The notes under the pieces were generated by a model. It had not been told where the DNA came from, searched no databases, and saw only the letters and a program-made list of their open reading frames with translations. Of a stretch of DNA of 57,368 nucleotides, positions 1,948-19,289 are shown piece by piece; the stretch's first letter is position 1; each line of letters starts with the position of its first letter. This DNA is from Bacteroidota bacterium. GTDB taxonomy: Bacteria > Bacteroidota > Ignavibacteria > Ignavibacteriales > Ignavibacteriaceae. The DNA lies in assembly GCA_021815365.1 (NCBI GenBank), contig JAKAGZ010000013.1, positions 1 to 57,368 of the forward strand, read 5' to 3'. The translations under genes were made by a program, and so were the position numbers.

Positions 1948-4900
1948 TTATATCTTCATAGAAAATATTCTTTCTAGCACATTCACCATTTTTTCTCTAA
2001 AGATTGGTTTAGAGATAAAATCATCAAAACCAGCAGCAATGAATTTTTCTTTGTCGCCAGGCAAAACGTAGGCTGTTACTGCAATGATTGGAATATTTTC
2101 ATAACCCTGCATCTTCTGAATAATTTTTAGTGCATCCAGACCATTGTACTCACCCTGAAGATTTATATCCATTACAATAAAATCAAAATGATCACTGTCA
2201 AGTATCGGGAGAGCTTCTTCAAAGCTGACGGCAAATTTTATCTCTTTTAATTCCTTCATCTGCACCTTGAAGAGAATTTGAGAATCCACCTGGTCTTCAA
2301 TGTAAAGGCATCTTAGTTGTGAAAGATCCAATTTACCTGATGTTTGTGAAGACGAAGAATATTCATTTTCTTTTTTAATTTCGCCTGAAATTGTTTTAGC
2401 TTCATATTCAGTCTCCTTTTCTGTCACAGGTACTTTTTCGAAACCTGCTATCTCTTCTTCTTCGGCAGCTTCAAATTCTTTCGTTACCTCCAGTTCGCCA
2501 TAATCTGACTCATCAGAAAGTTCTTTGATAGCTTTTTCGATTTCATCTTCTCTCTTTGCTGACGCTTTCTGTTTTTCTTCAGCAGCCAGATAAAAGTCAA
2601 CCGGAAATACGAACCTGCAGTTAGTTTTTTCACCATCACCAAGTATTTCAAACTTACCATTTAATATTTTTAGCAGAGCTTTTACAAGTCGCAAGTTCAA
2701 CCTGGATATTCCATGATTTTTAGCGGTATCTATTTCACCGGTTATAAAAACAATCTTGTAAAAATCAAGCAAATATTTAGTTGTGTTAGCGTAATTATCT
2801 CTGACGGAAATAATAAATTTATCGTTGCCTTCAGGATAGGAAGAGAAATATATTTTCTTCTCTTTGCTTACAGACGCAGCAATTTTCACAAGTAAATTTA
2901 TAAAATGCTGGAACTTTGCCTTGTCCGATTTGAATTTCAACGATGAGGAAATCTTACCGTAACCAAATTCTGTTTTCTTTGAACCTGTAAACTCGGCAAT
3001 GTTACTATGCAGGTATTCGATTATCTCGGTAATAGCAATATCAGAAATATTAAACTGCACATTACCTTTTTCAATATTAGTGTACTCGACCACAGAGTTC
3101 ATCGTCTCAAGAAGTCTCTCCCGGTTTTGATTAATGATATCAGCCGACTCTTTCTGTTCTGGTGTCAGGTTATCTATGCTTTCAGTTAATTCCTGAACAA
3201 AACCAAGTATGACATTTATCGGTGTTAATATTTCGTGGAATAATCCGGACAGAAAGGATGAGTCTATCTTGCCGGAAGCCTGGCTGGTTTTTTCAATCGG
3301 TTTTTCAATGACAACTTCTTTAATAATTTCTTTTGTCTCAACAACCGGCTCTTCTTTCTTTTTAACAATAATCGTAAAAGACTCAATTTCATTTTTAAAG
3401 TTTAACACAGGAACTGCAAATAATTCAGCTTCAATAAATTCGCCATTAAGACTTTTCATACTAACAGTTAAGGATATTTCTTCCCTCACATTCGATTTAA
3501 ATACTGAAGTGTTGACTGTCCCCCTGTCTTCGTCTTTCAGGTAAGAGGCGAACGAACTGTCCGTAAAATCTTCTTTAGAATGACCTAAAACTGCGCAGGC
3601 AGCATCATTGACGAACGTGATAAAACCGTTTGGATCGGTAAGGAAGACCAGGTTGTCGGTTTTGTTAAAAACTGAATCAAAAGATTTTTCTTTCTTTTCA
3701 AGTTTCAGCTTTTCAGTAACATCCCTGATAATGTTAAAATGAGCATCCCTCTCTTTATATTTAAAAATTATTTTACTTAACTCAACAAAGACAGAAGAGC
3801 CATCTTTCTTTTTGTGTCTGTACGGTCCTGAAAATTTCCTCTCATTAATTTCACTTTTTGAAGTATCTAAAAGAGATTGGATATCCTCCGTAGTGTAGAG
3901 GTCCGTTAGGTCCATTTGCAGAAATTCATCCCTGGAATATCCGTAAAGCTGCAAAGCTGCGGCATTCACTTCCAGAAAGCGCAGATTTTCTGTATCATAA
4001 ATAAAAATCGGTTCAGGATTATTTTCAATTAATATGTCAAACATTTTCCCTCTCCTGGTTATCAACTTACCAAGATCAATTGACTCTTCAACACTCTCAA
4101 TCAAAATTGCAACGCCTTCAAGTTCATATTTCTCGTTGTAAACTTTGCTGAGTTGAAGAGAAATTTCTCCTGAATATTTTCTCTTAAATTTACTCTGATT
4201 ATTAAGCCTGTACTTTTTCTTATCTGAAGAACTTAAAATAAACTCGTCAATTATGCCAACTATTTCGTTGGGTAAAATCCGGTTATAGCTTAATCTCCGT
4301 AAATCGTGAAATTCTGTTTCGAATAATTTACGAAATTCTTCAGTAGTTTGCTTAAAAATTCCATCCTTGTCAATTATTGCAACAGGTTTGGGGAAAAATT
4401 GCAGCAAATCGGCAGGTGAAGCAAATATATCTGAAATACTTATTCCTTTGTTTACAGCAGATGACGACTGGGTAACACCAATAATTGCTATCACATTATT
4501 GTCGACATCACTTAGCGGAATTTCTATGGTTTGATATTTATCGCCAGACCGGTAATTCTTTAACGGAATTCCTTCAACAATCACATAATTCAGTGATTTC
4601 TTAAGATACGAAACTAAAGAATTGTGAAAATCGATAAGATGTGCAGGCAGGAAAGAAGCGACAGACTTCCCTTCAACCTGTGAGACCGATATTCCGAGAC
4701 TGTTTGCTAATTTATCATTAAGTACCTGGTAATTTCCGTCTATATCCTGCACCCAGAAAAGTTCGTCGAAATTATTGATTGCCTTCTGAATTTTTTCTTT
4801 ACCTATAAATGTAAAGGGATAAAGAGATTTAATTTCTTCAATAACTGTTAGGATGCCGGGGTTATGTATTATTTCTTTGAGGTCTTCGTTCTTTACAAGT

Positions 4901-5283
4901 ATTTCTGTTCTTCCGCCGATAATGATCTGGTTCTCTTTCTTTTTTATGCGGCAGAAGATGAAGTTTTCCTCTCTTTCTTTATAGGAATTTACAATCAGTT
5001 TAACATCGAATTCATCCCCCGACATTAAAATGAACCGGCTGTTAATCGAAATAAGTTTCTGTAAGGGAAGTTTTTTAGCAAAAAGTAATTTCAGCTCTTC
5101 TGCTGAAGCGTCATCAAGGTAAGAAAAAATATCCCCTTTGTTGTTTTCGAGCGATAATAACTCAGAAGCTTCTTTATTAAATGATAATATATTACCATCC
5201 ACATCCAGGACCAAAAAAGGGTCTTTGATGTGCTGAATCAATGATCCAAATAGATTACCATTTGATTTGTTATCTGCCTCCAA
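1948..5283 (-). CDS. Five-PAS hybrid sensor histidine kinase/receiver with degenerate ATPase domain
   Basis: A 1111-aa soluble signalling protein without membrane segments. By eye it has five PAS domains (about 16-120, 168-275, 295-400, 408-525 and 530-640), a HisKA dimerisation helix with His683 in the box FHEILTPIN, a HATPase-like region (about 765-880), an acidic linker, and a C-terminal receiver (about 985-1108, Asp1039 in VMDINLQ, Lys in SKPIF). The ATPase region looks decayed: the N-box position usually occupied by Asn is Lys (NLLVKIAAS), and the G1 box is DNYANT instead of DTGxG. It may therefore be a pseudokinase. Translation seems to start at TTG 5283. It is the last gene of the minus-strand exopolysaccharide locus, 103 bases after the lipoprotein gene; it could sense redox or ligand state for that locus (inference). 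Confidence 0.88.
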   Translation of the reverse strand: MEADNKSNGNLFGSLIQHIKDPFLVLDVDGNILSFNKEASELLSLENNKGDIFSYLDDASAEELKLLFAKKLPLQKLISINSRFILMSGDEFDVKLIVNSYKEREENFIFCRIKKKENQIIIGGRTEILVKNEDLKEIIHNPGILTVIEEIKSLYPFTFIGKEKIQKAINNFDELFWVQDIDGNYQVLNDKLANSLGISVSQVEGKSVASFLPAHLIDFHNSLVSYLKKSLNYVIVEGIPLKNYRSGDKYQTIEIPLSDVDNNVIAIIGVTQSSSAVNKGISISDIFASPADLLQFFPKPVAIIDKDGIFKQTTEEFRKLFETEFHDLRRLSYNRILPNEIVGIIDEFILSSSDKKKYRLNNQSKFKRKYSGEISLQLSKVYNEKYELEGVAILIESVEESIDLGKLITRRGKMFDILIENNPEPIFIYDTENLRFLEVNAAALQLYGYSRDEFLQMDLTDLYTTEDIQSLLDTSKSEINERKFSGPYRHKKKDGSSVFVELSKIIFKYKERDAHFNIIRDVTEKLKLEKKEKSFDSVFNKTDNLVFLTDPNGFITFVNDAACAVLGHSKEDFTDSSFASYLKDEDRGTVNTSVFKSNVREEISLTVSMKSLNGEFIEAELFAVPVLNFKNEIESFTIIVKKKEEPVVETKEIIKEVVIEKPIEKTSQASGKIDSSFLSGLFHEILTPINVILGFVQELTESIDNLTPEQKESADIINQNRERLLETMNSVVEYTNIEKGNVQFNISDIAITEIIEYLHSNIAEFTGSKKTEFGYGKISSSLKFKSDKAKFQHFINLLVKIAASVSKEKKIYFSSYPEGNDKFIISVRDNYANTTKYLLDFYKIVFITGEIDTAKNHGISRLNLRLVKALLKILNGKFEILGDGEKTNCRFVFPVDFYLAAEEKQKASAKREDEIEKAIKELSDESDYGELEVTKEFEAAEEEEIAGFEKVPVTEKETEYEAKTISGEIKKENEYSSSSQTSGKLDLSQLRCLYIEDQVDSQILFKVQMKELKEIKFAVSFEEALPILDSDHFDFIVMDINLQGEYNGLDALKIIQKMQGYENIPIIAVTAYVLPGDKEKFIAAGFDDFISKPIFREKMVNVLERIFSMKI

Positions 5284-5386
5284 GCTATACCATATATATT
5301 ACTGTAATCAAAAGCCCTATCAATTTTAGAAATTCCCATTCTTAGCTTAGCATTAATTTACATATTCTTGCTCTTTAGCACTACGC

Positions 5387-6370
5387 TTATTTGGGATACA
5401 CACTTACTACATTTGACCATGCAGAATCTGTGCTGGAGACTGCTTTAATTCTGTAAATATATTCCAATCCATAAACTGTTGAGCTATCAGTATAACGAGT
5501 AGTGTTTTTATCAACCCTTAATATTTCTGAAAAATTATTCCAGGAATTTCTTCTTTCAATCTTGAAATAATTTTCATTACTGCTGTTATCATTCCAGCTC
5601 AGATTAACTGTCGAACCTACACCCTGCACCGCTGCAAGATTTGTCGGAGGCAGCAACGCCGTTGATGATGTACCTACATTCATAGAATTGATTTCCGGGC
5701 TGAACGCAGAAGCACCGGCATTGTTTACTGCTCTTATCTTATAATAGTAAAGTGTATTTACAAGAGCGTTATCATCATTAATATTAAATGATTTTGGCGA
5801 TGCGGTTAAATACTTTGAATATGTTCCATTGAACCCTACACGCCGCCAAATTTCATAACTTGTAACACCAAGCGAAGAATCCTGCCAGGAAAGATTAAGT
5901 GTATTTCCCGTGCCAAGACGAGTGAAAGTAAAATTATAAGGTGTATAAGGAGTAACCCTGACATCCGATATAACAACTGCTTTCTGCACATCGCTTCTTG
6001 CTGAAGAACCATTCTGATCATAATAAATCAAAAAGTAATCGATCTTCGTACCAATAGTGTTTGGGTCCATCTTAAAATTTATCTTTGGCAGGCTGCCATC
6101 TGACCCGGTGAAGAATATAGAATTAAAATTATTATTTATATACAGCTCAATAAATTTAACTCCGCTACCTCCGGTAACAGAATACTTTATCTGCTCGCCT
6201 GCATAACCGATAGAATCATTGCTGACAGGGCTCAGGACTTGAATTTTTCCTGCGGTACCACTTGCAGTGCCGTTGTTCGGATCAGGAGATAAAATATCTG
6301 TACACCCTGCAACGATTATTGCAATTCCAATAAGGCTAAAGAGTATATATTTTTTAATTATTGTTTCCAT
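5387..6370 (-). CDS. Fibronectin type III domain lipoprotein
   Basis: A 327-aa predicted lipoprotein. The N-terminus has a lipoprotein signal with lipobox IIVAGC, so Cys22 or so would be lipidated, followed by a short Asn/Gly/Thr linker. Residues about 40-135 look like an Ig-like domain and two fibronectin type III modules follow (about 140-230 and 240-327), each with the Trp/Tyr pattern of the fold (SWQDSS, YEIWRR; SWNDNS, FKIERR). It starts 29 bases after the NodB-like gene and is probably co-transcribed with the exopolysaccharide synthase genes. A role in binding or retaining the polymer at the cell surface is plausible from context only. Confidence 0.82.
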   Translation of the reverse strand: METIIKKYILFSLIGIAIIVAGCTDILSPDPNNGTASGTAGKIQVLSPVSNDSIGYAGEQIKYSVTGGSGVKFIELYINNNFNSIFFTGSDGSLPKINFKMDPNTIGTKIDYFLIYYDQNGSSARSDVQKAVVISDVRVTPYTPYNFTFTRLGTGNTLNLSWQDSSLGVTSYEIWRRVGFNGTYSKYLTASPKSFNINDDNALVNTLYYYKIRAVNNAGASAFSPEINSMNVGTSSTALLPPTNLAAVQGVGSTVNLSWNDNSSNENYFKIERRNSWNNFSEILRVDKNTTRYTDSSTVYGLEYIYRIKAVSSTDSAWSNVVSVYPK

Positions 6371-6399
6371 ATCAAGTCCTGTTTACTTTCGTAAAACCC

Positions 6400-8295
6400 T
6401 TATGAATTTGTTTGATTATAATCTATATAATATGTTCTGGATTCGTTAGGCTCCAGGTCGTTGATATAAACATAAACGATCCTGCCTTTCTTATCATAAT
6501 CAAATCTTGCTTTTTTAGTGCCGATAATTTCTGAGCTTAAAGAAATCCTCTGGGCAGGGGCATTTAATTCAACTTCAACAACTAAATTACTTGCTGTAGA
6601 CTTACCCGGATTAGAGACCGTTAAAGTTACCCTGTTTGGTCCTCTCTTATCAGTTCTTATCTCAACACTGTTTTTCTCTGCATACCATTTTTGTATTTCT
6701 TCACCTGTTGTGATCCAGAAATTTTTCTTTTTAAGATCTTCAATCACATTTTTAACCACACCAATGTTCTCAGGTGCGCATTGATATTCTGTATGCATTT
6801 TAAATACATACATACCGCCTTCAAAGAGAACTCTGTCAATATCTTCCTGGTAAGTATAAAGCTGAAAATCAGGCTGCTTTAATCCAAAGTCACGGATAAC
6901 TTCATAATCATCGCGTGCGGTTTTTGTCATAGTTGTAATTCTCTTGTCACCTAAGATTATATTGTTAGGTACAGAACGATCTGTTAAGGAGTCGGTCATT
7001 ATATATTTATAACCGTCGTCTATTAAAGCTCTCAAAGTATTCTGGTCGAATAAGCCATAGTAAGGGAAAGCTCCAACAACTTTTGAGCCTGTAACTTCTT
7101 CGAGTTCTGTTTTGGCATCTTTCAATTTCTGAACCTGTGAATCATAGTCGTTCAGTGAGTTAACAGTGTCATTGATTGAACTAAGATAGCCTATATCAAC
7201 AAGCGAACCAACTTCACCATATCTTGCTAAAGATCTCACCAGACCTTTATTTAACTGAGCCTGCATTGGATTAACAAAGAATGTTGCTTTCACTTTTTCT
7301 GATCTTAATACGTTCAGTAAATTCTGAATGTTATTAGCATCAGCATTAACAGCAGGTGCAAGCATTGCAGCCGCGTCATAACCAACGGGCCATTCTTTAG
7401 CAAATGCAATCGGCTGATATGTTAACCAGTTGATCGAGTTATTAAATAATCTGTCAAAGTATATATAGTCTTCCTGTACACCGATAACAGAGTTTATCTC
7501 GAACCCCATCCAGACAAACCTTCCGCGTCCGTATGTACCATAAACTATACCGGCGCTCTTCTTAATGTTTTCTCTTACCAAGCCATTCTCGAGCCTGTAA
7601 TTGTACCAGAAGCTTACCTGTGTAGTCCTGGGATCCATCACTTCGACTGAGATCGGTTTATCCCACGTAGCAACTTTTAATGGAAAGCCGGTTGGTATAT
7701 TTGCAGTTATTGGCAAATCTCCTCTGAGAGTATGGACCTTTGTTACCTGATCATTATTTATTTCTTTAGAGAACTCCAATCCAAAAACTTCTGAGAAGAA
7801 ATTCCAGCCTCTCCATTTACCATCATCAGAGTATGAAGCTGTACCGCTTGTTGCAAAAATGCTTCCGCCTTTATCAAGATATTTTTTAATCTCAACTATT
7901 TCTTTATCGCTAAGCGCTCTTGAACCCGGCAGAACTAAGAGGTCATATTTAAAATGCTGCCCCAGCTCAATAGTTTCATCACTAATGATATCATATTTCA
8001 ACCCGGAATTGTCTAAAAACTTTTTCCAGGTTGTAATGTTATCATTTAACCAGGTGTTACCTTCGGGAAGCATATTTTCAGTATACTTAGAATAAAGTAT
8101 TCCTATAGTCGGTTTACTGCCAGCAATGACACCTTTCACAACGCTGGAGCTGGGAACTAATTCGTTTGCATTAAATGAGCCGTAGACTCCGCGTAAGATA
8201 AAAAAGTACGTCAATACTGCGCCGACTAAGAAAATTAGTCCGCTGAAGACGATAAGGCCCTGGCTGATGCCGCCTTTTTTATTTTTTATCTCCAC
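6400..8295 (-). CDS. Membrane-anchored GATase-like plus NodB-fold (polysaccharide deacetylase-like) protein
   Basis: A 631-aa protein with an N-terminal transmembrane anchor (about 12-35). A class-I glutamine-amidotransferase-like or ThuA-like domain (about 58-290) is followed by a NodB/CE4-like barrel (about 298-510; VKATFFVN is the recognisable strand) and a C-terminal beta domain (about 545-631), all presumably periplasmic. CE4 enzymes need an Asp-His-His metal site, but motif 1 (TFDDG) is replaced by a stretch around APAVNAD and the HSxxH motif 2 contains no His (GSLVDIGYL). It is thus probably not an ordinary deacetylase. Its start overlaps the end of the upstream small membrane gene by 10 bases. 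In PNAG systems PgaB occupies the equivalent position, so a polymer-binding or export role is likely. Confidence 0.8.
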   Translation of the reverse strand: MEIKNKKGGISQGLIVFSGLIFLVGAVLTYFFILRGVYGSFNANELVPSSSVVKGVIAGSKPTIGILYSKYTENMLPEGNTWLNDNITTWKKFLDNSGLKYDIISDETIELGQHFKYDLLVLPGSRALSDKEIVEIKKYLDKGGSIFATSGTASYSDDGKWRGWNFFSEVFGLEFSKEINNDQVTKVHTLRGDLPITANIPTGFPLKVATWDKPISVEVMDPRTTQVSFWYNYRLENGLVRENIKKSAGIVYGTYGRGRFVWMGFEINSVIGVQEDYIYFDRLFNNSINWLTYQPIAFAKEWPVGYDAAAMLAPAVNADANNIQNLLNVLRSEKVKATFFVNPMQAQLNKGLVRSLARYGEVGSLVDIGYLSSINDTVNSLNDYDSQVQKLKDAKTELEEVTGSKVVGAFPYYGLFDQNTLRALIDDGYKYIMTDSLTDRSVPNNIILGDKRITTMTKTARDDYEVIRDFGLKQPDFQLYTYQEDIDRVLFEGGMYVFKMHTEYQCAPENIGVVKNVIEDLKKKNFWITTGEEIQKWYAEKNSVEIRTDKRGPNRVTLTVSNPGKSTASNLVVEVELNAPAQRISLSSEIIGTKKARFDYDKKGRIVYVYINDLEPNESRTYYIDYNQTNS

Positions 8296-8735
8296 TTTAA
8301 AGCTCCTGTGTTTTTATTATCTTCTTGTGGTGTAATGTAACCTTCAGATGTATACTTCAAGAATTTATTACCTGAAGATCTCTGAGCCGTTCTTCCTGAA
8401 ACAGATGCACCCTGGAATGCTCTTCCGGCATTATATTGCTGCGGTTGAGGAGTAAACCTGGGCTGTGATGCCTGCTGAACAGGTTCTTGGTTCATAAATA
8501 TCGGCTGACGCTGAGCATATCCGTATGTTTCCTCTGCGTAAGCAGGAAATTGTTCTTGCTGAGGAGTTGCCGAAGGAGTAATTAATTCGCCTCTGACTTC
8601 AGAAGGTCTTGGTATATATACCTGCTGCCCTCTGGCTTCTCTTGCTTTATAAAGTATGTAAGCGCCTATTGCTAATAAGAAAGTACTTATTGTAGCAACG
8701 AGAATGATTGTTGAAAGAATAGGGATTAGTTCCAT
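8286..8735 (-). CDS. Small single-pass membrane protein, Gln/Pro-rich
   Basis: A 149-aa protein with one N-terminal transmembrane helix (about 5-28) followed by KAREARG on the likely cytoplasmic side and then a long low-complexity segment rich in Gln, Pro, Ala and Tyr. No enzyme motif is seen. It lies 39 bases after the glycosyltransferase and overlaps the NodB-like gene by 10 bases, so it is tightly built into the operon. By position it could be an analogue of small synthase partners such as PgaD, although it shows no sequence resemblance that I can see. Function unknown. Confidence 0.75.
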   Translation of the reverse strand: MELIPILSTIILVATISTFLLAIGAYILYKAREARGQQVYIPRPSEVRGELITPSATPQQEQFPAYAEETYGYAQRQPIFMNQEPVQQASQPRFTPQPQQYNAGRAFQGASVSGRTAQRSSGNKFLKYTSEGYITPQEDNKNTGALKWR

Positions 8736-8774
8736 AATGACCTCTTATGTTTATAAATTATTAATTAATAAATT

Positions 8775-10172
8775 TTACCTGCTTGCTCCAACTCTCTCTA
8801 ACTTACCCCAGGTCATTCGTATGCCCAGGAATTCCTCGATTGTAGACATCAGCTTGCTGACGTCAATCATTAAAATGAAAAACATTCTGTATATCAATGA
8901 ATAGCCTACCAATCTGAACTCTTCTTTTTCAACAGCGACACAGTACAAGGCTGTTACAAGATCCAGCAGAGCCAGCCCTGCCCACCAGAAAAAGATCAAT
9001 GATGTAAAACCGAAAAAGATAGCTGCAACTATGAAGAACAGGTTTGCTGCTATATTCATTGCAGGCCAGATCAAAGCTTCATAGAACATTGTCCAGAGAA
9101 TAAATGTATCACCAAAATTTATCGTAGGATTGAACATTAATTTTTTATGTTTTCTGATAGACTGCAAAATTCCTCTTGTCCATCTGTAACGCTGCTTCAG
9201 AAGCTGATGTAATTTTTCAGGGGCTTCTGTATAAGATATTGAATTCGGCTCATAGTAAATCTTCCATCCGTTTGCTAATATCTTCAGTGTTAAATCAGCG
9301 TCTTCTGCAAAAGTATCGCTTGAATAATATCCTGCCTCTTCAATTGCTTTCTTTCTGAACAAGCCGATAGGACCCGGGATAATATTCACAAGCCTTACAA
9401 AACTTTGTGCACTTCTTGCCATATTCAAACCTTCGATATATTCAAGAGCCTGAAGATCAGTAAACAGTTTTCCTCTGTTGAGAACTTTTACGTTACCTGC
9501 AACAGCACCGATTTCTGGATTGGTGAAGTGACGCACTGCGACTTTAATTGAATCAGGTGATAACTGACTGTCACCATCCATGCACAAAACTATTTCAGCT
9601 TTTGAATGTTTTATACCTGCATTAAGAGCCTGTGATTTTCCGCCATTTGGTTTATCAATAAGTGAAACCTTAACAGATCCATAACGACCTTTCTGATATC
9701 CCACCAGCGTTTCAGCAACTTCTTTTGTTCTATCAGTAGAGCCATCATTAACAACTATTATCTCATAGTTTGAATAATTAAGGTCAAGCAAGGACCTTAC
9801 TGAATCTGTTACTACCTTTTCCTCGTTATAAACAGGAACTATAATCGAAACAAACGGGAAAAAGCCGGATGAAGCTTTATAGGTATATTGATTCACATAC
9901 ATATAAGCTAAAATCAGGATCGCAAAGTACCTGAACAACAGTACAAAAAGAAATATTACTAACGCCACAATAGTTGCATACTCAAGCAATGAGCTTGTGT
10001 TAAGAACTGTTTTAGGCATTGTATAAAGGATGATCATTATCAGAACAAGAGATAAAAAGCCTGAAACAAGAATACGCTTTATCAGCTTGCCCTCAGTATT
10101 CAGATCATTCGGCTGATCTTCAACATTTTTTAATACTATTGAAGCTCGTTTAACTGGTTGTTTTGTTTGCAT
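8775..10172 (-). CDS. Processive family 2 glycosyltransferase (PgaC/HasA/BcsA-like polysaccharide synthase)
   Basis: An integral-membrane synthase of 465 aa that would polymerise a beta-linked polysaccharide from nucleotide sugars at the inner face of the cytoplasmic membrane. Two N-terminal membrane helices (about 30-55 and 62-95) precede a GT-A domain. The family motifs are visible: VNDGSTD, the DGD of MDGDSQL, the catalytic ED in FAEDADLT, and QRYRWTRG, the QxxRW signature of processive enzymes. Several membrane helices follow and the C-terminus has the MTWGKLERVG ending typical of PgaC/IcaA-like enzymes. There is no PilZ domain. The gene follows the TPR-barrel gene after 260 bases that include a -24/-12-like motif. 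The polymer cannot be deduced; poly-N-acetylglucosamine-like is one option. Confidence 0.92.
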   Translation of the reverse strand: MQTKQPVKRASIVLKNVEDQPNDLNTEGKLIKRILVSGFLSLVLIMIILYTMPKTVLNTSSLLEYATIVALVIFLFVLLFRYFAILILAYMYVNQYTYKASSGFFPFVSIIVPVYNEEKVVTDSVRSLLDLNYSNYEIIVVNDGSTDRTKEVAETLVGYQKGRYGSVKVSLIDKPNGGKSQALNAGIKHSKAEIVLCMDGDSQLSPDSIKVAVRHFTNPEIGAVAGNVKVLNRGKLFTDLQALEYIEGLNMARSAQSFVRLVNIIPGPIGLFRKKAIEEAGYYSSDTFAEDADLTLKILANGWKIYYEPNSISYTEAPEKLHQLLKQRYRWTRGILQSIRKHKKLMFNPTINFGDTFILWTMFYEALIWPAMNIAANLFFIVAAIFFGFTSLIFFWWAGLALLDLVTALYCVAVEKEEFRLVGYSLIYRMFFILMIDVSKLMSTIEEFLGIRMTWGKLERVGASR

Positions 10173-10201
10173 GTGATTTCACTTTATTTTTTATTAAAAA
10201 A

Positions 10202-10216
10202 ACAATTATAATGCCA
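10202..10216 (-). promoter_or_regulatory. GGCAT-N5-TTG motif, possible sigma-54-like promoter of the synthase gene
   Basis: On the minus strand the site reads TGGCATTATAATTGT. It matches the -24 half of a sigma-54 promoter (TGGCA) and the TTG of the -12 half at the right distance, but the near-invariant C after TTG is T. The predicted start would be about 18 bases before the glycosyltransferase ATG. Two similar sites precede KaiC-like genes at almost the same distance. Confidence 0.35.
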
Positions 10217-10361
10217 TTAAAAAATCTCTTTTTTTCTATCTACAAAAGATTATAAACTCTTTGTTTGTAACAGTTCTGGATATATGTTTAATTTGTTTCA
10301 ATTTTGTACACAACTTTAATAAGCACAAACTGCAACTGTTATAAACTGAAGATCAGGTTAA

Positions 10362-10383
10362 GCCGGCGTTGTGTAACGCCAGC
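10362..10383 (-). terminator. Hairpin between the TPR gene and the glycosyltransferase gene
   Basis: On the minus strand the sequence GCTGGCGTT-ACAC-AACGCCGGC forms a nine-pair stem with one mismatch. It lies about 50 bases after the stop of the TPR-barrel gene. There is no run of T after it, so it is a weak intrinsic terminator at best; it may reduce read-through or stabilise the upstream mRNA. Confidence 0.4.
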
Positions 10384-10432
10384 CTAGCCATTTACCTCAA
10401 GAATTTCAAATAACTTTTATTTACTTAACTTA

Positions 10433-13315
10433 TTAAAGATTCCAGAAAGCTCCGAAGTATGCAGAGAAAGAGCTGTAACCTAGCGTGTTCTGGAAGGTGC
10501 TTCCATAAGCTATAGTGCCCTGCAATGTAAATTTAGAAGCTGCTGCCCAGCTAAAGGATCCGTAAAGCTGCCTGATGATATATGAGCTGCGAGCGATTAG
10601 TCCAACTTTACCACCTACTGAAACTTTCGTCAACTTATCTTTCGATTTGTAAAGATCAAAATCACCGAATAAACTATGAGATGAATAATTCTGCGGAGAA
10701 TAATAACCCGGACTTACGAAAGAGAAATTCAATCCTTCATATTCATAACCGATTAATACTTCGGGATAGAAATATTTTCCAAATCTCATATTTAATTTGT
10801 AGCCGCTGTTGCCGTCTGTAATATTCAGGTATGAAAAGTCAGTAGAAATTCTGAAATTGTTCTTAAAGTTATAAAAACCTGTGAACCTTGTTAAGTCAGT
10901 ATATTCTCTCGTATTAACCAGGTTAGGTGAGAATAATACCTGGGCTGCGTCTACCCTTGAAAATGAAAGTACAGCGGAATAATGATCAGGTACTTCGCTT
11001 TTCAAAAATGCATCAGCTAATGTTTTCCTGCCGCTGTTTGCATAATATGAATTGCCCAAACCAATACCCAGTGTTGTATTCGGCATCAGAGTGATCATTA
11101 AATTCCATTTAATATTATTAATATTTTCTTTCGTAGAATTATTCGAAAGCGTTGTACGATTGCCTTCAACACCTATGGTCATGAACGAAGTAACACCTAA
11201 GTCAAACCTGATTCCCTGGGTATTAAATCTGAATCCCAGGTTATCGCCGTAGTATGCGCCGTAAGGTGAAAGCATTGCGTATGAAGGGAAAGATGACAGA
11301 GCTGAGCCGAAACCGCCTCTTGGCAGCCAGCCTTCTCTCATCTCAATCATAGCAGTCTGTGAAGAATCTAGCTGCATATTTTCTTTCATCCTGTCATACA
11401 CGTCTGCAGCTTCATCGAACTGGTGCATTTTAGCATAAGAATCTCCAAGATAGAGGTTTACAATAAAATCATCTGGTTTATCTTTTGCTAATTTCTGGAA
11501 CGAGCTGAGTGCATCAACAGAATCTTCCATATAGTAATAAGTTTTTGCTCTCATCAAATCAGTATCGTAATCATAACTCTGACTTAACAGATCGTTATAA
11601 ATAGAAATTGCTTTGCTGTAATTTTTAGCACAGACATTAACGTCAGCATATTCTCTCTGCACAATGACGTTCGGTTCTGCTTTTGCCATGTATTCATCGT
11701 ATTTTGCCAGAGCCTCATTACAACGATTTTCATAAGAAAGCTGGCGTCCTTCCTGCAGAATCTCGAACAACCTTTCCTGCTCTGCGGCAATTTTTGCTAT
11801 TGCAAAATCTGATTCCAGCTTATCAAGTGTAGGATTAGTGGGGTCAATCTTCTTAATTTGATTTAAATAACCTCTTGAAGCATCAAAATCTTTTTGCTGA
11901 AGAGTTAAAGAAGCCAGTGTAAGCATTGCAGGAACATCTTTAGGATTTTTTGCAATCATATTTTCAAGTACTGGTTTTACTTTGTCCAGATCCCTGCCGG
12001 ACCAAACTGAAAGCTGTGAGCGGAATAACTGGTATTTATAATTATTTGGTTCCGATTGCAGCAGTTCATCCACTACTGTAAGAGCTTTTGAGAAATCCCT
12101 GTTCTTTGCAGATAACTGAGCATATAAATATTTTACGTCATTGTTATTACCTGAGGAAGTTTTTGCTAGATAATCATCCAGAACTTTTAACCCGCTGTCA
12201 TAATCTTTTATCCTGTCATAATATTCTGCTAACCCCATAACAGCTTTTTTGTTCGTAGGATCATTTTTTACTAAGGCTGAATATTCATTAACTTTTTCGT
12301 GATAAATCTTATCCAGCCTGGCTTGCAGGTCTGAAGAATACTGGTTGTATATCTTTACATTCGAAGTAGTATCACGCGATAAAATATCCAACTGCTCGGT
12401 TGCTTCTTCGTATCTTTTAGCGTCAACTAATTCTTTAACAAGCTTAAATCTCAGCTCATTATTATTAGGAGTCCTTTTTAATAATCTGTAATCCCTGTCG
12501 ATCGGGTATTCGAAAACTTTTCTTACAGGTCCTCTTCCTGCATTATATTTTACAGAGGTATCATTGATAGTGTAAACGTATCCATTTCCTTTAGCCAGGT
12601 CCAATCCATCCAATGCTTCCTGGAAGAAGGGTCTTAAAGCCAAAGCATGCTCGAAGGCATCAATAGAAATTTTGAACTTACCGAGCCAGAGAGTAAAATA
12701 TCCATATCTCGACCAAAGCCTGTGGTCGTTTGGAAATTTTTCTGTATATTTTTTAAGTATTGGCTCGCCTTTAGCAATGTGATTATTTTTTGCTAATATT
12801 TCAGAATACCTGATTATCTCGTCAGGGGAAGCTTCTTCTCTTGCAAGGTACTGATCATACCACTCTTCAGCAGTTGCCCATTCGCCGAGATTTTTATAGC
12901 ATTTACCTATCTCAAGATAATTTTTAGCTGCATTCGGATTTATTGCAAGCTCTCTTTTATGTCCTTCAATTTTATTATAAAGGAGAGACTGCCATGCGGT
13001 TGTAGCTCTCGAAAGGTTAGCGCTTATATCTTTGTTATTAGGTTCTAACTTCAAAGCAGATCTATAGTCATACACTGCATTTTCATAATCTTTTCTTTTT
13101 TCGTAACAGATACCGCGAAGATTATACCCCAAAGCTTCCTGCGGGCGTGCAGAGATATATTTGTTCAGCAGGTCTATGGCTTCACCATAACGCCCGAATT
13201 GCATTTGCTTTTGTGCTTCCATTCTCAGCGCATCAGCCTGAACCTGTGCAAAAATGCTTGAGGCACTCAAAAATGCAAAAAGAAATACTACAGAGATAAA
13301 TATTGTTTTTTTCAT
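10433..13315 (-). CDS. TPR-repeat outer-membrane beta-barrel protein (PgaA/BcsC/PelB-like polysaccharide exporter)
   Basis: A 960-aa exported protein with a clear signal peptide (1-23, ending SIFAQ). Residues about 25-660 are tandem tetratricopeptide repeats, such as the ALGYNLRGICYEKRKDYENA unit near residue 56. About 680-960 are alternating, Tyr/Phe-rich strands of a predicted outer-membrane barrel ending FGAFWNL. Periplasmic TPR plus C-terminal porin is the architecture of PgaA, BcsC and PelB, which take the polymer across the outer membrane. Its stop is followed by a hairpin and the synthase gene, and its start lies 14 bases after the first KaiC-like gene, so a role as the exporter of the locus is well supported by context. 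Which polymer it handles is unknown. Confidence 0.85.
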   Translation of the reverse strand: MKKTIFISVVFLFAFLSASSIFAQVQADALRMEAQKQMQFGRYGEAIDLLNKYISARPQEALGYNLRGICYEKRKDYENAVYDYRSALKLEPNNKDISANLSRATTAWQSLLYNKIEGHKRELAINPNAAKNYLEIGKCYKNLGEWATAEEWYDQYLAREEASPDEIIRYSEILAKNNHIAKGEPILKKYTEKFPNDHRLWSRYGYFTLWLGKFKISIDAFEHALALRPFFQEALDGLDLAKGNGYVYTINDTSVKYNAGRGPVRKVFEYPIDRDYRLLKRTPNNNELRFKLVKELVDAKRYEEATEQLDILSRDTTSNVKIYNQYSSDLQARLDKIYHEKVNEYSALVKNDPTNKKAVMGLAEYYDRIKDYDSGLKVLDDYLAKTSSGNNNDVKYLYAQLSAKNRDFSKALTVVDELLQSEPNNYKYQLFRSQLSVWSGRDLDKVKPVLENMIAKNPKDVPAMLTLASLTLQQKDFDASRGYLNQIKKIDPTNPTLDKLESDFAIAKIAAEQERLFEILQEGRQLSYENRCNEALAKYDEYMAKAEPNVIVQREYADVNVCAKNYSKAISIYNDLLSQSYDYDTDLMRAKTYYYMEDSVDALSSFQKLAKDKPDDFIVNLYLGDSYAKMHQFDEAADVYDRMKENMQLDSSQTAMIEMREGWLPRGGFGSALSSFPSYAMLSPYGAYYGDNLGFRFNTQGIRFDLGVTSFMTIGVEGNRTTLSNNSTKENINNIKWNLMITLMPNTTLGIGLGNSYYANSGRKTLADAFLKSEVPDHYSAVLSFSRVDAAQVLFSPNLVNTREYTDLTRFTGFYNFKNNFRISTDFSYLNITDGNSGYKLNMRFGKYFYPEVLIGYEYEGLNFSFVSPGYYSPQNYSSHSLFGDFDLYKSKDKLTKVSVGGKVGLIARSSYIIRQLYGSFSWAAASKFTLQGTIAYGSTFQNTLGYSSFSAYFGAFWNL

Positions 13316-13329
13316 AGCTCTCTTATCTT

Positions 13330-14580
13330 TTAGTGAAAATAAAGTTTGTTTTTTTCTTCTGTTTCTTCATTTGTAAGCTGTTGAAGCAGATCCTCTGCAC
13401 TTTGAATTTTTTCATCTACTTTTACAACATACACCGATATGTGCTGCAGCAGTTCGGTTAAATTAACAGCCTGGCTTAAAGGTAGATTAGCTTTTACTCT
13501 TCCGATAATGGAGTTAATGCTCTTCTGATCTTCTTTTGTAATCAGAACAATGACTTTGTTATTTAAAATACAAATCTTATCCTTCTTATCAGTAGCTAAT
13601 CTGACTGCATTTTGTAATTGTGTTATTGTCAGTAAACCTCTGTTCTCTGCTGCCTTATCCAGACGGAATGACATTACTGTGAAAACCTGTCCTGTGCTTT
13701 TATACAGCGCTATCTGATTATTTAAAATTAATCTAAAATCATTTTCAGAGTAGTAACTTGTAAAAGTATAATTTTCAAATGGTACTTCTACATCTGCTAA
13801 TGATTTATATTTCTTTTCAGTCCCGGGAACCTGCGAAGGATATTGTATAACTTCCAAGGACTTAGGTGCCTGATAATCTATCACTATACCTTTATACGGT
13901 TCAATAGAATAAGTGGAAGAAACCTGTCCTTCAGTATGCCCGATGTTGGGTGTAATAGTCATAACGCCGTTTTGAACGGAAGTTGTCTTTGCGTTTTCAT
14001 TCTTCTTAAGATAAACAACGCCTGTTGAAAAGGAAGTAAGAGTATCTACTATCGCCTGGCTGCCGGCAGCGGCTGGTTCGCCAAGTACATATAAACTTGT
14101 AATGCCGCTGTCTTCTATCGTTTCACAAGTGTTGGAGAATGACTGACGTAATATGGAAATATTATTAAAGCCTACAAAAGGAGTAAGCTCGTCGAAAACG
14201 ATTTTGCTTGGCTGATATTGTTCGACAACTGTTACAATGTCATTCATATATTCAACCAAAAAATTATCAGGATTCCCGGCTTCATATAAATCAGCAGGAG
14301 GAGCTACTCTTACTACAATTATAAGATTCTGATTCATATAATTCTGAAGATCCAGATCAATGGAAGCTGCTTGTATCATTAAATCTTTAGGACGCATACT
14401 TGTGAAATACAAACACACTTCTTTTTGTTTAGCGCATTCCATAGCGTACTGGAGGCTTAATAAAGTCCTGCCGGATTTCCGGGCACCTATCAAAAGATAT
14501 GTACCTCCCCTATAGAACCCGCCCCACACTTTATCTACCAATGGAATTCCAGATGCTATTATTTGTATTTTTTGTTTCAT
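13330..14580 (-). CDS. KaiC-like RecA-fold ATPase with C-terminal GGDEF-like region (paralogue 1)
   Basis: A 416-aa cytoplasmic protein. Residues 1-240 are a single KaiC-type domain, starting SGIPLVDKVWGG and ending in a region like the KaiC strand pair (GHTEGQ). The Walker A reads GARKSGRT (32-39), so the P-loop Lys is Arg38. Walker B is KIVFDEL (Asp130). The position of the KaiC catalytic Glu pair after strand 2 is Thr-Ser (YFTSMRP). Residues about 265-405 look like a degenerate GGDEF fold with no GGDEF or RxxD motif: a helix NDFRLILNNQIALY, a strand pair around ICILNNKVIVLI, then ISVYVV. The ATG at 14580 is chosen because it aligns with both paralogues; an in-frame TTG lies at 14592. The TPR gene follows after 14 bases. 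It may regulate polymer synthesis. Confidence 0.82.
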   Translation of the reverse strand: MKQKIQIIASGIPLVDKVWGGFYRGGTYLLIGARKSGRTLLSLQYAMECAKQKEVCLYFTSMRPKDLMIQAASIDLDLQNYMNQNLIIVVRVAPPADLYEAGNPDNFLVEYMNDIVTVVEQYQPSKIVFDELTPFVGFNNISILRQSFSNTCETIEDSGITSLYVLGEPAAAGSQAIVDTLTSFSTGVVYLKKNENAKTTSVQNGVMTITPNIGHTEGQVSSTYSIEPYKGIVIDYQAPKSLEVIQYPSQVPGTEKKYKSLADVEVPFENYTFTSYYSENDFRLILNNQIALYKSTGQVFTVMSFRLDKAAENRGLLTITQLQNAVRLATDKKDKICILNNKVIVLITKEDQKSINSIIGRVKANLPLSQAVNLTELLQHISVYVVKVDEKIQSAEDLLQQLTNEETEEKNKLYFH

Positions 14581-14606
14581 TTTATTACTCAATTTACCTA
14601 GTGATT

Positions 14607-14622
14607 GGCAAAGATTATGCCG
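14607..14622 (-). promoter_or_regulatory. GGCAT-N5-TTGC motif, best sigma-54-like site of the locus
   Basis: The minus strand reads CGGCATAATCTTTGCC. GG and GC are spaced exactly as in -24/-12 promoters, and transcription would start about 16 bases before the ATG of KaiC-like paralogue 1. The same bases also contain the inverted repeat GGCA-N7-TGCC, so an operator for a dimeric repressor is an alternative reading. Confidence 0.45.
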
Positions 14623-14712
14623 TGCTTAAGCCCTTGTAGTTCAAGATATTTTCGATATAATTTTAACAAATTACTGGATTAAAGAAATACAAATCCCTTT
14701 ATCCTTGTATCA

Positions 14713-15462
14713 TTATGCTACGCTTTTTCTTGCAGACATACCAATTTTTGGACCGTTGTCAGAGAAATCAATTGTAACGCCTTTATAAGGCTCTATATGA
14801 TATTCAGTTCTGAACTGCCCTTCAGTATGCCCGATATTAGGAGTAATGATCATCTCTCCGCCCTGCTGTTCTTCGTCTTCTTTCTTCAGGTAGACTATGC
14901 CGGTCGAAAGAGTAACCATTGAATCAACTATTGATTGTGATGCAGGGGCTGCAGGATCATTTAATACAAAGAGACTTGTAATTCCTGCATCTTCTATTTT
15001 TTCACAGGTTTCTGAGAAAATATTCTGAAGGAGATTAAAGTCATTAAATTCGATAAAAGGTGTCAGCTCATCAAAAACTATTTTAGACGGCTGATATTGA
15101 TCTACAACTGCAGCAATATCGTTTAAGTATTCAACTAAAAATTCATCACCATTTCTTTCGGGCATATCTGAATCAGCAGGAGGAGCTACTCTTACTACAA
15201 TTATCTGATTCTTATCCATATACTGCTGAAGGTCAATATCAATTGATGCAGCCTGGATCATTAAATCTTTTGGACGCATGCAAGTGAAGAATAAACAGAC
15301 TTCATTCTGGCTGGCTGCTTCCATAGCATACTGAAGGCTTAGGAGCGTCCTGCCTGATTTATGTGAGCCGACTAATAAATAAGTACCGCCGCGATAAAAT
15401 CCGCCCCATTCTTTATCTACTAACGGAATACCCGATGATAATAACTGAATCTTCTTTTGCAT
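14713..15462 (-). CDS. KaiC-like RecA-fold ATPase (paralogue 2, single domain)
   Basis: A 249-aa single KaiC-type domain, strikingly similar over its whole length to the first 240 residues of paralogue 1 and without the C-terminal extension. Walker A is GSHKSGRT, again with Arg38 in place of the P-loop Lys; Walker B is KIVFDEL (Asp131). The catalytic Glu pair of KaiC is replaced by Thr-Cys (FFTCMRP). The ribosome-binding site GAGGA lies 5 bases before the ATG. It sits between its two paralogues, with 45 bases to the upstream and 120 to the downstream one. Tandem duplication is the simplest origin. A mixed hexamer of the three proteins is possible because KaiC-type domains assemble as rings (inference). 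Confidence 0.85.
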   Translation of the reverse strand: MQKKIQLLSSGIPLVDKEWGGFYRGGTYLLVGSHKSGRTLLSLQYAMEAASQNEVCLFFTCMRPKDLMIQAASIDIDLQQYMDKNQIIVVRVAPPADSDMPERNGDEFLVEYLNDIAAVVDQYQPSKIVFDELTPFIEFNDFNLLQNIFSETCEKIEDAGITSLFVLNDPAAPASQSIVDSMVTLSTGIVYLKKEDEEQQGGEMIITPNIGHTEGQFRTEYHIEPYKGVTIDFSDNGPKIGMSARKSVA

Positions 15463-15507
15463 ATCTTCCTCTGTTTTTATTTTTAATAATTATTTTTTAA
15501 TATCTTT

Positions 15508-16365
15508 TTATGTTTCTATATCGTCCGTATTATCAAACTCATCACCATTGTCACCGAGCGTATACCCATCATTAAAAAGATTTTTACGCCCGTTACTACT
15601 ACCGCCAAATTCTTTACTGTTACCTTTTTTCATTTTACCTCTTGCAATTTCCATAACAGGTGATGAATCAACAAAATCTACTGTAATACCTTCATAAGCA
15701 CTTATCGAATAGATAGATTTAAACTGCCCTTCAGGATGCCCTACTACAGGTGTAATTATCATCTCTCCTTCTTTGGATTCATTTTCATTATTAATATAAA
15801 TTACACCATTACCTTCCTTAACAACTGTATTAACTAAGTTTTCTGAAATATTATTTGCAGGATCTGAAAGGATGAAGAGACTTGTTGCCTGGTTTTGCTC
15901 GATTGTTTCCATAGACTGCCGGAATACTTCCGTCAATGCTGCTGAATTATGAAAACCGATAAAAGGGGTAAAGTCGTCAAAGACTATTTTGTCAGGTTTA
16001 TATTGTTCAACAACTCTTGTAATTTCGTTCCAGTGAAGTGCTAATTCCTCGTCGTGCTTTCCGGTAATATCCGACATTGAAGGCAGGGCAATTTTAATCA
16101 CTATTATTAAATTTTGATTAATGAAAGCCTCCATATCAAAATCTATCGTTGCAGAATGAATAAGAAGATCTTTTGGCTTCATAGCCGTGAAGTAAAGGCA
16201 GACTTGTTTTTGTCTTGCACATTCTCTCGCACACTGAATACCTAAAATAGTTTTACCGGATTTGTGCGGACCAATCAGGAAGTAGGTTCCCCCGATATAA
16301 AACCCGCCCCAGGTTTTGTCCACCAGTGGTATTCCTGATGATAGAACGTGTATCTTATTATTCAT
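15508..16365 (-). CDS. KaiC-like RecA-fold ATPase (paralogue 3, canonical Walker A)
   Basis: First gene of the exopolysaccharide locus, 285 aa. The KaiC-type domain spans about 1-235. Unlike its two neighbours it keeps the P-loop Lys (GPHKSGKT, Lys38). Walker B is KIVFDDF (Asp130), and the KaiC catalytic Glu pair position is Thr-Ala (YFTAMKP). The C-terminal 45 residues are polar, Gly/Asn/Asp-rich and probably disordered. The ATG at 16365 is preferred although the frame stays open upstream to 16578, because MNNKIHVLSSGIP aligns with the starts of the other paralogues and the extension looks non-coding. The ribosome-binding site is weak. Likely role: nucleotide-dependent regulation or assembly of the polysaccharide machine. 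Confidence 0.85.
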   Translation of the reverse strand: MNNKIHVLSSGIPLVDKTWGGFYIGGTYFLIGPHKSGKTILGIQCARECARQKQVCLYFTAMKPKDLLIHSATIDFDMEAFINQNLIIVIKIALPSMSDITGKHDEELALHWNEITRVVEQYKPDKIVFDDFTPFIGFHNSAALTEVFRQSMETIEQNQATSLFILSDPANNISENLVNTVVKEGNGVIYINNENESKEGEMIITPVVGHPEGQFKSIYSISAYEGITVDFVDSSPVMEIARGKMKKGNSKEFGGSSNGRKNLFNDGYTLGDNGDEFDNTDDIET

Positions 16366-18628: not shown

Positions 18629-18650
18629 ATTTTTATTTGATGTTAATTCC

Positions 18651-19289
18651 TCACCTCGGTACAAGTCCTTCCTTCAGCGCCTTGGATACAAGACCGCTTC
18701 TTGTATTCACCTGTACTTTATGATAAATATTTTTAACGTGTGTCTGTACTGTTTGGGGGCTGGTGAAAGTGATCTTTGCAATTTCATTTACAGTTTTTCC
18801 ATCAACAAGATAATTAAGAATTTGCGTTTCTCTTTTTGTAAGCCCATAAGTATTTTCCGTTTGCTTCATGGATGAGAAAATATTAAAAACTTTTCTTGCA
18901 AGCCCGGAATTTATTGAAGAGCCGCCGTCTACAACAGTTTTTATTGCGTCAAGTATTTCTTCAGGCGAAGAGTTTTTAAGAAGATACCCGTTAGCCCCGT
19001 TGCAAATTGCATCGAATATTTTTTCATTATCATCGAAGACTGTTAGCACAACTATTTCAATTTCTTTAGCAATCGATTTTATTTCTTTTATGCCGTCAAT
19101 ACCGTTCATGCCGGGGAGATTAATATCTGTTAAGATAATATCAGGTGAATTTCCCTTCGACAGGAATTTCAGTGCATCTGCCACGTTTGTAAATTCCTGT
19201 TCACATCTGCACCAGTCGCTTTGGTTAATAGCGCTGCGAATAATGTGAGAATAGGAAGTGTTATCTTCTATTATCCATACATCTGTCAT
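18651..19289 (-). CDS. NarL/LuxR-family response regulator
   Basis: A two-domain regulator of 212 aa. The receiver spans about 1-120 with phospho-acceptor Asp55 (LTDINLPG). The LuxR-type helix-turn-helix spans about 145-207 (LTKRETQILNYLVDG, then TVQTHVKNIYHKV). It is convergent with the 7TMR-DISM histidine kinase, whose HisKA_3 type is the usual partner of this regulator class, so the two very likely form a two-component system. Its targets are not visible; the neighbouring exopolysaccharide locus and secreted-protein gene are candidates by position only. Confidence 0.93.
   Translation of the reverse strand: MTDVWIIEDNTSYSHIIRSAINQSDWCRCEQEFTNVADALKFLSKGNSPDIILTDINLPGMNGIDGIKEIKSIAKEIEIVVLTVFDDNEKIFDAICNGANGYLLKNSSPEEILDAIKTVVDGGSSINSGLARKVFNIFSSMKQTENTYGLTKRETQILNYLVDGKTVNEIAKITFTSPQTVQTHVKNIYHKVQVNTRSGLVSKALKEGLVPR

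Follow-up and report, generated by a model that had tools for sequence, protein, structure and literature searches.

A conserved polysaccharide-secretion locus of Ignavibacteriales with one KaiC-like protein predicted to end in a degenerate GGDEF domain

Results

Nine co-directional genes form a polysaccharide locus

The window analyzed here is the whole stretch of 57,368 nucleotides (contig JAKAGZ010000013.1, positions 1 to 57,368, forward strand) from a Bacteroidota bacterium of the family Ignavibacteriaceae (GenBank assembly GCA_021815365.1; 3.09 Mb, 99.95% complete, with the window as contig 94), and the system in question is a set of nine open reading frames at 1948-16365, co-directional and all on the minus strand. 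They encode three KaiC-fold proteins (KaiC1, KaiC2 and KaiC3), a TPR protein, a GT2 synthase, a small membrane protein, a NodB-fold protein, an Fn3 lipoprotein and a PAS hybrid sensor (Table 1). The intergenic gaps are short, except those between the TPR and GT2 genes (260 bp), KaiC2 and KaiC3 (132 bp) and the Fn3 and sensor genes (103 bp). The original prediction of a nine-gene, mostly tightly spaced locus on one strand was confirmed in its reading frames and coordinates, and Pfam backed the assignment of eight proteins, while the small membrane protein of 149 amino acids (aa) matched no Pfam family. Since the gene order is conserved across tens of genomes, the arrangement is more than chance, and the set probably makes and exports a sugar polymer. 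We conclude that the locus represents a genuine and broadly conserved variant of synthase-dependent polysaccharide secretion whose regulator joins a KaiC fold to a degenerate GGDEF domain, both folds being predicted and the linkage and co-occurrence observed.

A single KaiC-like protein is conserved with the synthase and exporter genes

Three KaiC-type ATPase paralogues had been proposed as the core of the system. Three KaiC-fold genes are present in the window, with KaiC2 and KaiC3 70% identical across the KaiC domain, but the triad is lineage-specific, and KaiC3 is no plain paralogue, as it carries a degenerate GGDEF domain. Tandem copies occur in only 3 of the 55 genomes of the order Ignavibacteriales that carry KaiC3, namely the window's genome (three copies), G027 and G019 (two each). 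When KaiC2 was used as query, a strong match was obtained in 55 of 59 order genomes (the window's included), a weak one in G017 and none in G001, G023 and G036. In a class-wide sample of 294 genomes, strong KaiC matches fell in 55 order genomes, with none in G001, G023, G232 and G295 among those listed, and 31 genomes outside the order gave partial KaiC matches only (best E 3.2e-12), with 188 rows without a match standing outside the listing. A search of PHROGs returned nothing beyond a weak DnaB-like match. The conserved component is thus one protein of the 416-aa KaiC3 type and not a KaiC triad; its start was taken as ATG, with an alternative TTG possible 12 bases upstream.

The TPR gene lies directly downstream of KaiC3 in 53 of the 55 genomes, the two genes overlapping in 26 of these 53 and lying no more than 15 bp apart in 48; the exceptions are G032, at a contig edge, and G014, a true one. 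The GT2, small-protein and NodB-fold genes follow in the same locus in 45 of the 55 genomes, and in 44 of these 45 the small-protein and NodB-fold genes overlap by exactly 10 nt. Among the remaining ten genomes, contig ends restrict the view in six (G005, G010, G012, G022, G032 and G044, the last ambiguous there), three are truly split and one is G014. In the split genomes (G026, G040 and G042), the GT2, small-protein and NodB-fold genes lie on another contig, where other DNA extends for several kb upstream of GT2. L033, from a short-pattern genome scan that gave one locus, and L067 were treated as a single locus of G039 because their contigs are equally long. L033 was left out of the genome counts but still contributes a row to the GT2, small-protein and NodB-fold alignments, whose 46 rows therefore represent 45 genomes.

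Across 60 order genomes, KaiC3 and the NodB-fold gene were both found in 53, KaiC3 only in one (G014), the NodB-fold gene only in one (G036, an assembly of 780 contigs) and neither in five, two of which (G232 and G295) had been added because they are without KaiC3. The co-occurrence gives a Fisher p of 6.5e-6, a value that ignores shared descent and the choice of G232 and G295. In fifteen outgroup genomes chosen for lacking KaiC3, the search for the NodB-fold gene gave a single match, at E 4.6e-5. Neighbourhood and co-occurrence, the check on which the original prediction had staked the tie between KaiC-like and synthase genes, support that the KaiC-like gene belongs to the polysaccharide locus.

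The family also extends beyond the order. A domain profile run against 395 genomes of the phylum matched 38 strongly, all within the order; it also matched G387, a genome from another class, at E 1.1e-9, and gave weak matches in G120, G544 and G556 at E about 3e-4. The G387 protein is a full-length KaiC3 homologue (28% identity over 392 columns, hhalign probability 100), and 48 of 195 genomes sampled from this second class match it at E 1e-3, some through the KaiC part only or at marginal E. Among 21 second-class loci examined (L119 and L141-L160), seven have KaiC3, TPR, GT2, small-protein and NodB-fold genes in order, four have four of these five core genes (L142 ends before the NodB-fold gene, L141 has no TPR match, and L145 and L146 have no small-protein match), and one consists of KaiC3 and TPR at a contig end.

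KaiC3 lacks canonical catalytic residues of KaiC

A full AlphaFold2 model of KaiC3 built from 52 sequences had a mean pLDDT of 83.6 and a pTM of 0.58, and its predicted N-terminal domain superimposed on KaiC 7s65_B with Z 27.0 and a root-mean-square deviation (rmsd) of 2.3 over 216 residues. The top sequence matches in the PDB are likewise KaiC, and the RecA-type fold is shared with ArlH (E 7.6e-7; 4yds_A, E 3.8e-4). KaiC3 differs from both in having a single KaiC domain, no KaiC-type Glu pair, a fused GGDEF domain and a polysaccharide neighbourhood. In the 52 aligned KaiC3 rows, the catalytic Glu pair is missing throughout and the Walker-A Lys is replaced by Arg in 43, being kept in nine, while the P-loop Gly and Thr and the Walker-B DE are invariant. 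The window proteins have Arg (KaiC2 and KaiC3) or Lys (KaiC1) at this position. None of the 21 second-class KaiC3 proteins has a canonical Walker A, and no Glu pair occurs in their aligned region (a loose EE pattern gave chance-prone matches in 5 of 21 and was not used). The KaiC3 family is thus without the combination of Walker-A Lys and catalytic Glu pair that defines a KaiC ATPase. An active KaiC-like ATPase ring of KaiC3 and its paralogues whose ATP turnover gates or times the synthase, as had been suggested, would fit the KaiC fold, the invariant P-loop and Walker-B residues, the nine rows with Lys and the PDB matches, but it is improbable given the missing Glu pair, the prevailing Arg, the second-class proteins that retain the gene set with no canonical Walker A, and the scarcity of paralogues.

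The C-terminal part of KaiC3 is predicted to be a degenerate GGDEF domain

Folded alone, the C-terminal part of KaiC3 gave a model with pLDDT 82.5 and pTM 0.77. The best 50 matches listed by Foldseek (best E 9.1e-6) and the best 50 listed by VIA were all GGDEF-domain proteins; in VIA the model aligned to 4urq_U with Z 13.0 and rmsd 3.3 over 136 residues, and to PelD (4dmz_B) with Z 10.8 and rmsd 3.5 over 122. In the predicted model, residues about 275-404 of KaiC3 form a degenerate GGDEF domain. At the sequence level, PF17853 (GGDEF_2) matched 9 of the 31 members of a wider KaiC3 alignment (best 9.3e-5) and PelD_GGDEF one of them (0.0069), while the narrower alignment of 52 members had no GGDEF family among the 25 matches listed. 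The GG[DE]EF signature of diguanylate cyclases is absent from the aligned KaiC3 members. At the position of the RxxD site, order members have DKKD or similar, and an LRxxD motif resembling an I-site is present in 15 of 21 second-class proteins, two of the 21 ending short of that region.

PelD is a membrane GAF-GGDEF protein. The guess that a KaiC-like protein fills the place held elsewhere by an effector of cyclic di-GMP (c-di-GMP) such as PelD was apt, given the degenerate GGDEF domain at the C-terminus of KaiC3. By its predicted fold, such a domain would be present in a synthase regulator in both cases; in KaiC3, however, the partner is a KaiC-fold domain, and RxxD is absent in the order.

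Genes for c-di-GMP turnover are scarce

PilZ, EAL and GGDEF domains were searched in 59 order genomes, and GGDEF alone in 24 second-class genomes. PilZ was found in none of the 59 and EAL in one, G011, which has an estimated contamination of 8%. GGDEF was matched in 58 of 59: G011 has two matches (one strong), G035 none and every other genome one, that of G024 lying below the cut-off. The single protein lacks GG[DE]EF in all 15 orthologs read. Of the second-class genomes, all with the KaiC3 family, 19 of 24 have no GGDEF match, among them five of the seven with all five core genes (G378, G494, G496, G564 and G612), and five carry GGDEF proteins. Control of the system by c-di-GMP is unlikely.

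The same data bear on the view that KaiC3 is a true c-di-GMP receptor like BcsE or PelD, the nucleotide being made by enzymes that our searches missed. The GGDEF fold with PelD among its matches, the LRxxD-like motif of second-class proteins, the five second-class genomes with GGDEF proteins and the strong GGDEF and EAL matches of G011 are in its favour. It is nevertheless unlikely, as PilZ is absent from the order, EAL is confined to G011, the only GGDEF match of 57 genomes has a degenerate signature in the orthologs read, the order has a DKKD-like sequence instead of RxxD, and most second-class genomes have no GGDEF match.

The single GGDEF-type protein (L089:112-1986, on contig 87 of G000; orthologs L100-L113) lies outside the locus in nearly every order genome, including G001, which is without KaiC3. 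It has a GAF-GAF-degenerate GGDEF layout in the 15 read (by Pfam for L089 only), PelD-like by eye. A link between the GGDEF domain of KaiC3 and L089, the genome's one other GGDEF-like protein, was considered and dropped (hhalign probability 0.4). In G011, one strong GGDEF and EAL pair lies at contig 10:4458-5690, possibly on foreign DNA.

A small membrane protein with a conserved helix and tail

In 55 rows from both classes, 18 of the first 37 residues of the small membrane protein are at least 95% identical, and helix identity to the consensus is 0.78-0.94 in the 46 order rows. The linker is variable and rich in P, Q, A, S, T and G. The tail carries a YTxxG[YFH]-like motif in 45 of 55 rows and a Trp within the last four residues in all 55; it is probably cytosolic, because positive charges follow the helix.

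The locus of G014 (94% complete) keeps KaiC3, the small-protein gene following it, and the sensor. The fetched stretch of 20 kb contains no TPR, GT2 or NodB-fold gene; the genome as a whole likewise gave no NodB-fold match, and GT2 and TPR were searched in that stretch only. The G014 helix has an identity of just 0.36 to the consensus, whereas its tail, at 0.59, lies within the normal range (0.35 upwards in the other rows, with a median of 0.76). Of 20,000 shuffles, one attained a seven-of-ten match to the tail core, the core being the window's motif, picked after G014 had been seen. With the helix diverged and the tail kept, we read the helix as touching the synthase and the tail as touching KaiC3 or the sensor.

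Synthase motifs are intact, while other enzyme-like proteins are degenerate

The GT2 catalytic motifs are intact in all 46 rows. The best NCBIfam match of the window's GT2 is TIGR03937 (PgaC_IcaA) at 205.7 bits, below the cut-off of 422.3, and the TPR protein matches TIGR03939 (PgaA) at E 1.3e-13 and 50.1 bits against a cut-off of 366.65, with the best stretch in the TPR part; neither protein can therefore be assigned to these families. A likeness to PgaABCD lies in this GT2 match, the TPR exporter-type protein and the NodB-fold protein; the differences are the two scores and the absence of catalytic motifs from the NodB-fold protein. In each of the 13 loci read with a larger TPR-GT2 gap (L047, L048, L049, L054, L056, L064, L067, L068, L072, L075, L077, L079 and L082), the gap holds a secreted SGNH/GDSL-like protein of about 408-465 aa (label by eye), which may modify the polymer; the window's gap is too small for such a gene.

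The NodB-fold protein had been taken for a Pga-type deacetylase. Its PF01522 alignment begins only at profile position 19, and the strict metal motif [TS]FDDG is found in none of the 46 rows. Loosening the pattern gave hits in two rows (L038 and L059), off the motif-1 position, and the one HxxxH (L048) lies outside the domain; in 15 second-class proteins, the metal-site motifs are also absent under the patterns used there. The Asp-His-His metal site (TFDDG, HxxxH) of PgaB/NodB deacetylases is thus gone, and a role as Pga-type deacetylase is not supported. In L037, L038, L039, L043, L057, L058, L083, L086, L143, L144, L150, L152, L154 and L157, the NodB-fold gene is succeeded by another of its kind, which is often shorter.

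At the threshold applied, 38 of the 55 genomes have the Fn3 lipoprotein gene at the locus, and in many of the others a contig end cuts the locus short. The PAS, HisKA and REC domains expected of a PAS hybrid sensor are present, and the HisKA His and receiver Asp are kept in 36 of 36 aligned rows, but the ATP-binding domain is degenerate: the glycine boxes and the N-box Asn are lost in most rows, with N at the aligned column in 3 of 36. Pfam HATPase_c had no match at E 0.1, yet NCBIfam whole-kinase models span the region. From its sequence, the sensor may be a pseudokinase or a phosphotransferase. KaiC3, the NodB-fold protein and the sensor are thus without canonical catalytic residues, while GT2 retains its own.

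Table 1 Genes and features of the locus in the window
Feature	Position	Strand	Description
KaiC1	15508-16365	-	KaiC-fold domain and short tail; lineage-specific duplicate; 50% identical to KaiC2; PF06745 E 2.5e-18
KaiC2	14713-15462	-	KaiC-fold domain only; lineage-specific duplicate; PF06745 E 1e-23
KaiC3	13330-14580	-	416 aa; KaiC-fold domain and C-terminal degenerate GGDEF domain (predicted); PF06745 E 8.2e-23
Degenerate GGDEF domain of KaiC3	13369-13758	-	Residues about 275-404; predicted model
TPR protein	10433-13315	-	TPR families by Pfam; by eye, N-terminus resembling a signal peptide and C-terminus rich in beta structure; presumed exporter of PgaA/BcsC-like type
Processive GT2 synthase	8775-10172	-	Pfam GT2 E 3.7e-34; motifs DGD, EDxD and QRYRW intact
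Small membrane protein	8286-8735	-	149 aa; conserved helix, variable linker, conserved C-terminal tail
Membrane helix of small membrane protein	8628-8735	-	MELIPILSTIILVATISTF...
C-terminal tail motif of small membrane protein	8289-8366	-	KFLKYTSEGYITPQED...LKWR
NodB-fold protein	6400-8295	-	Membrane-anchored; amidotransferase-like domain and NodB-fold pseudo-deacetylase; Polysacc_deac_1 PF01522 E 1.3e-7
Fn3 lipoprotein	5387-6370	-	fn3 PF00041 E 2.9e-10; presumed surface or polymer-associated
PAS hybrid sensor	1948-5283	-	Pfam PAS, HisKA and REC

Discussion

A BcsE-like layout

Passages of PMC7439463 describe BcsE, of E. coli type II cellulose secretion, as an NTPase-REC-GGDEF protein with a catalytically incompetent NTPase domain that the authors overlaid on KaiC, and report that the GGDEF core of BcsE and PelD no longer has its P-loop and helix alpha-1. 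According to further passages there and in PMC11470070, the degenerate GGDEF domain of BcsE binds c-di-GMP, and BcsE is recruited by the tail of BcsF via beta-strand addition. Like BcsE as described there, KaiC3 appears to unite a RecA/KaiC-like pseudo-NTPase and a degenerate GGDEF domain in one protein. BcsF, a one-helix protein with a cytosolic tail, resembles the small membrane protein in layout and tail conservation only, and the E. coli cellulose locus shares with the window locus a GT2 synthase and an outer-membrane exporter, the latter presumed here. By eye, the GGDEF domain of KaiC3 seems shortened near where the BcsE/PelD core is reduced. The two systems differ in that the window's GT2 is PgaC-like and c-di-GMP genes are almost absent.

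Sequence homology to BcsE was considered and set aside because of weak profile scores, and only an architectural likeness was kept. PF10995 (BcsE; curated cut-off 25 bits) had no match in the window's KaiC3 at E 1 and matched 2 of 52 and 2 of 31 KaiC3-family members at best at E 0.043, E. coli BcsE itself scoring 756.7 bits. No BcsE chain was among the best 50 structural matches listed by either program, an absence that is uninformative. As the likeness is one of layout, with homology not established, we say that KaiC3 and the small protein would work like BcsE and BcsF, not that they are BcsE and BcsF.

The claim that no described polysaccharide system has several KaiC-like proteins holds for several, but BcsE, in the passages of PMC7439463, has one RecA/KaiC-like pseudo-NTPase domain. 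We found no description of such a KaiC-GGDEF polysaccharide system in the titles and abstract openings of the open-licence literature, and the main text of an operon survey (PMC7112194) names no Ignavibacter, KaiC, Rhodothermus or Bacteroidetes.

A scaffold that would control the synthase without c-di-GMP

By analogy, we propose, at a probability of roughly 0.55, that KaiC3 acts as a scaffold much like BcsE: held by a BcsF-like small protein, it would recruit the synthase and control it independently of c-di-GMP. GT2 would synthesise a hexosamine-type polymer and translocate it through the inner membrane, after which the TPR-barrel protein would export it. KaiC3, as KaiC-fold pseudo-NTPase and degenerate GGDEF domain, would be a cytosolic scaffold kept at the membrane-bound synthase by the small protein, whose helix would sit beside GT2 and whose cytosolic tail would bind KaiC3. 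Docking of KaiC3 may then assemble or switch the synthase. The input is presumably not c-di-GMP; the nucleotide state of the KaiC fold and/or a phosphorelay via the linked sensor would be more likely signals.

Several observations weigh against this proposal. KaiC3 is without the REC domain that BcsE has between its NTPase and GGDEF domains, and profile comparison with seven BcsE rows was weak (hhalign probability 6.3, E 0.0059), though collinear over the N-domain; comparison with a single BcsE gave a probability of 0.2. As the Walker-B DE is kept in every row, KaiC3 may still hydrolyse ATP. G014 is a single case, and its tail could instead serve the sensor. In the second class, the NodB-fold gene was matched in only three of five KaiC3 carriers searched (no match in G337 and G449), and KaiC3 stands alone in 9 of 21 loci, three of them on short or ending contigs. 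Lastly, the split loci of G026, G040 and G042 keep KaiC3 with TPR while the synthase half lies elsewhere, so that KaiC3 could serve export rather than synthesis.

The split loci, together with G014 and the nine second-class loci in which KaiC3 is kept without the rest, are also what favours a role of KaiC3 in the exporter or a wider envelope process, with the synthase merely sharing its transcript. We consider this alternative unlikely: the N-terminus of the TPR protein resembles that of secreted proteins (by eye), which makes direct contact with a cytosolic KaiC3 unlikely, and KaiC3 and the NodB-fold gene are jointly absent from five genomes, two of them picked for lacking KaiC3.

The scaffold proposal may be extended, more tentatively and with the odds somewhat against it, to an exopolysaccharide machine spanning classes and run without c-di-GMP by an assembly of pseudoenzymes (the KaiC-fold pseudo-NTPase, the degenerate GGDEF domain, the NodB-fold pseudo-deacetylase and the pseudo-kinase). 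Here the GGDEF domain would have been kept after loss of c-di-GMP or would sense another ligand, and the BcsF-like tail would tether the assembly to the synthase. If so, regulators of the BcsE type would be older and wider than proteobacterial cellulose systems.

The KaiC3 family gives a defined, testable protein family for the regulation of synthase-dependent polymers where c-di-GMP genes are all but absent. It suggests that the BcsE design of pseudo-NTPase, degenerate GGDEF domain and membrane tether is ancient or was invented twice. The small protein's tail and helix motifs are short enough to be probed directly by mutation. Broad conservation of the system within one order hints that the polymer is important to biofilm or aggregate life.

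Genes adjoining the operon

Two sets of adjoining genes were considered as parts of the system and set aside after comparison with the relatives' fetched stretches of about 4-20 kb: an NtrC regulator and HIT genes, which besides the window occur only in L056, and a pair found only in the window, encoding a membrane sensor kinase and a regulator of LuxR type (labels by eye), which adjoins the operon at 16775-19289.

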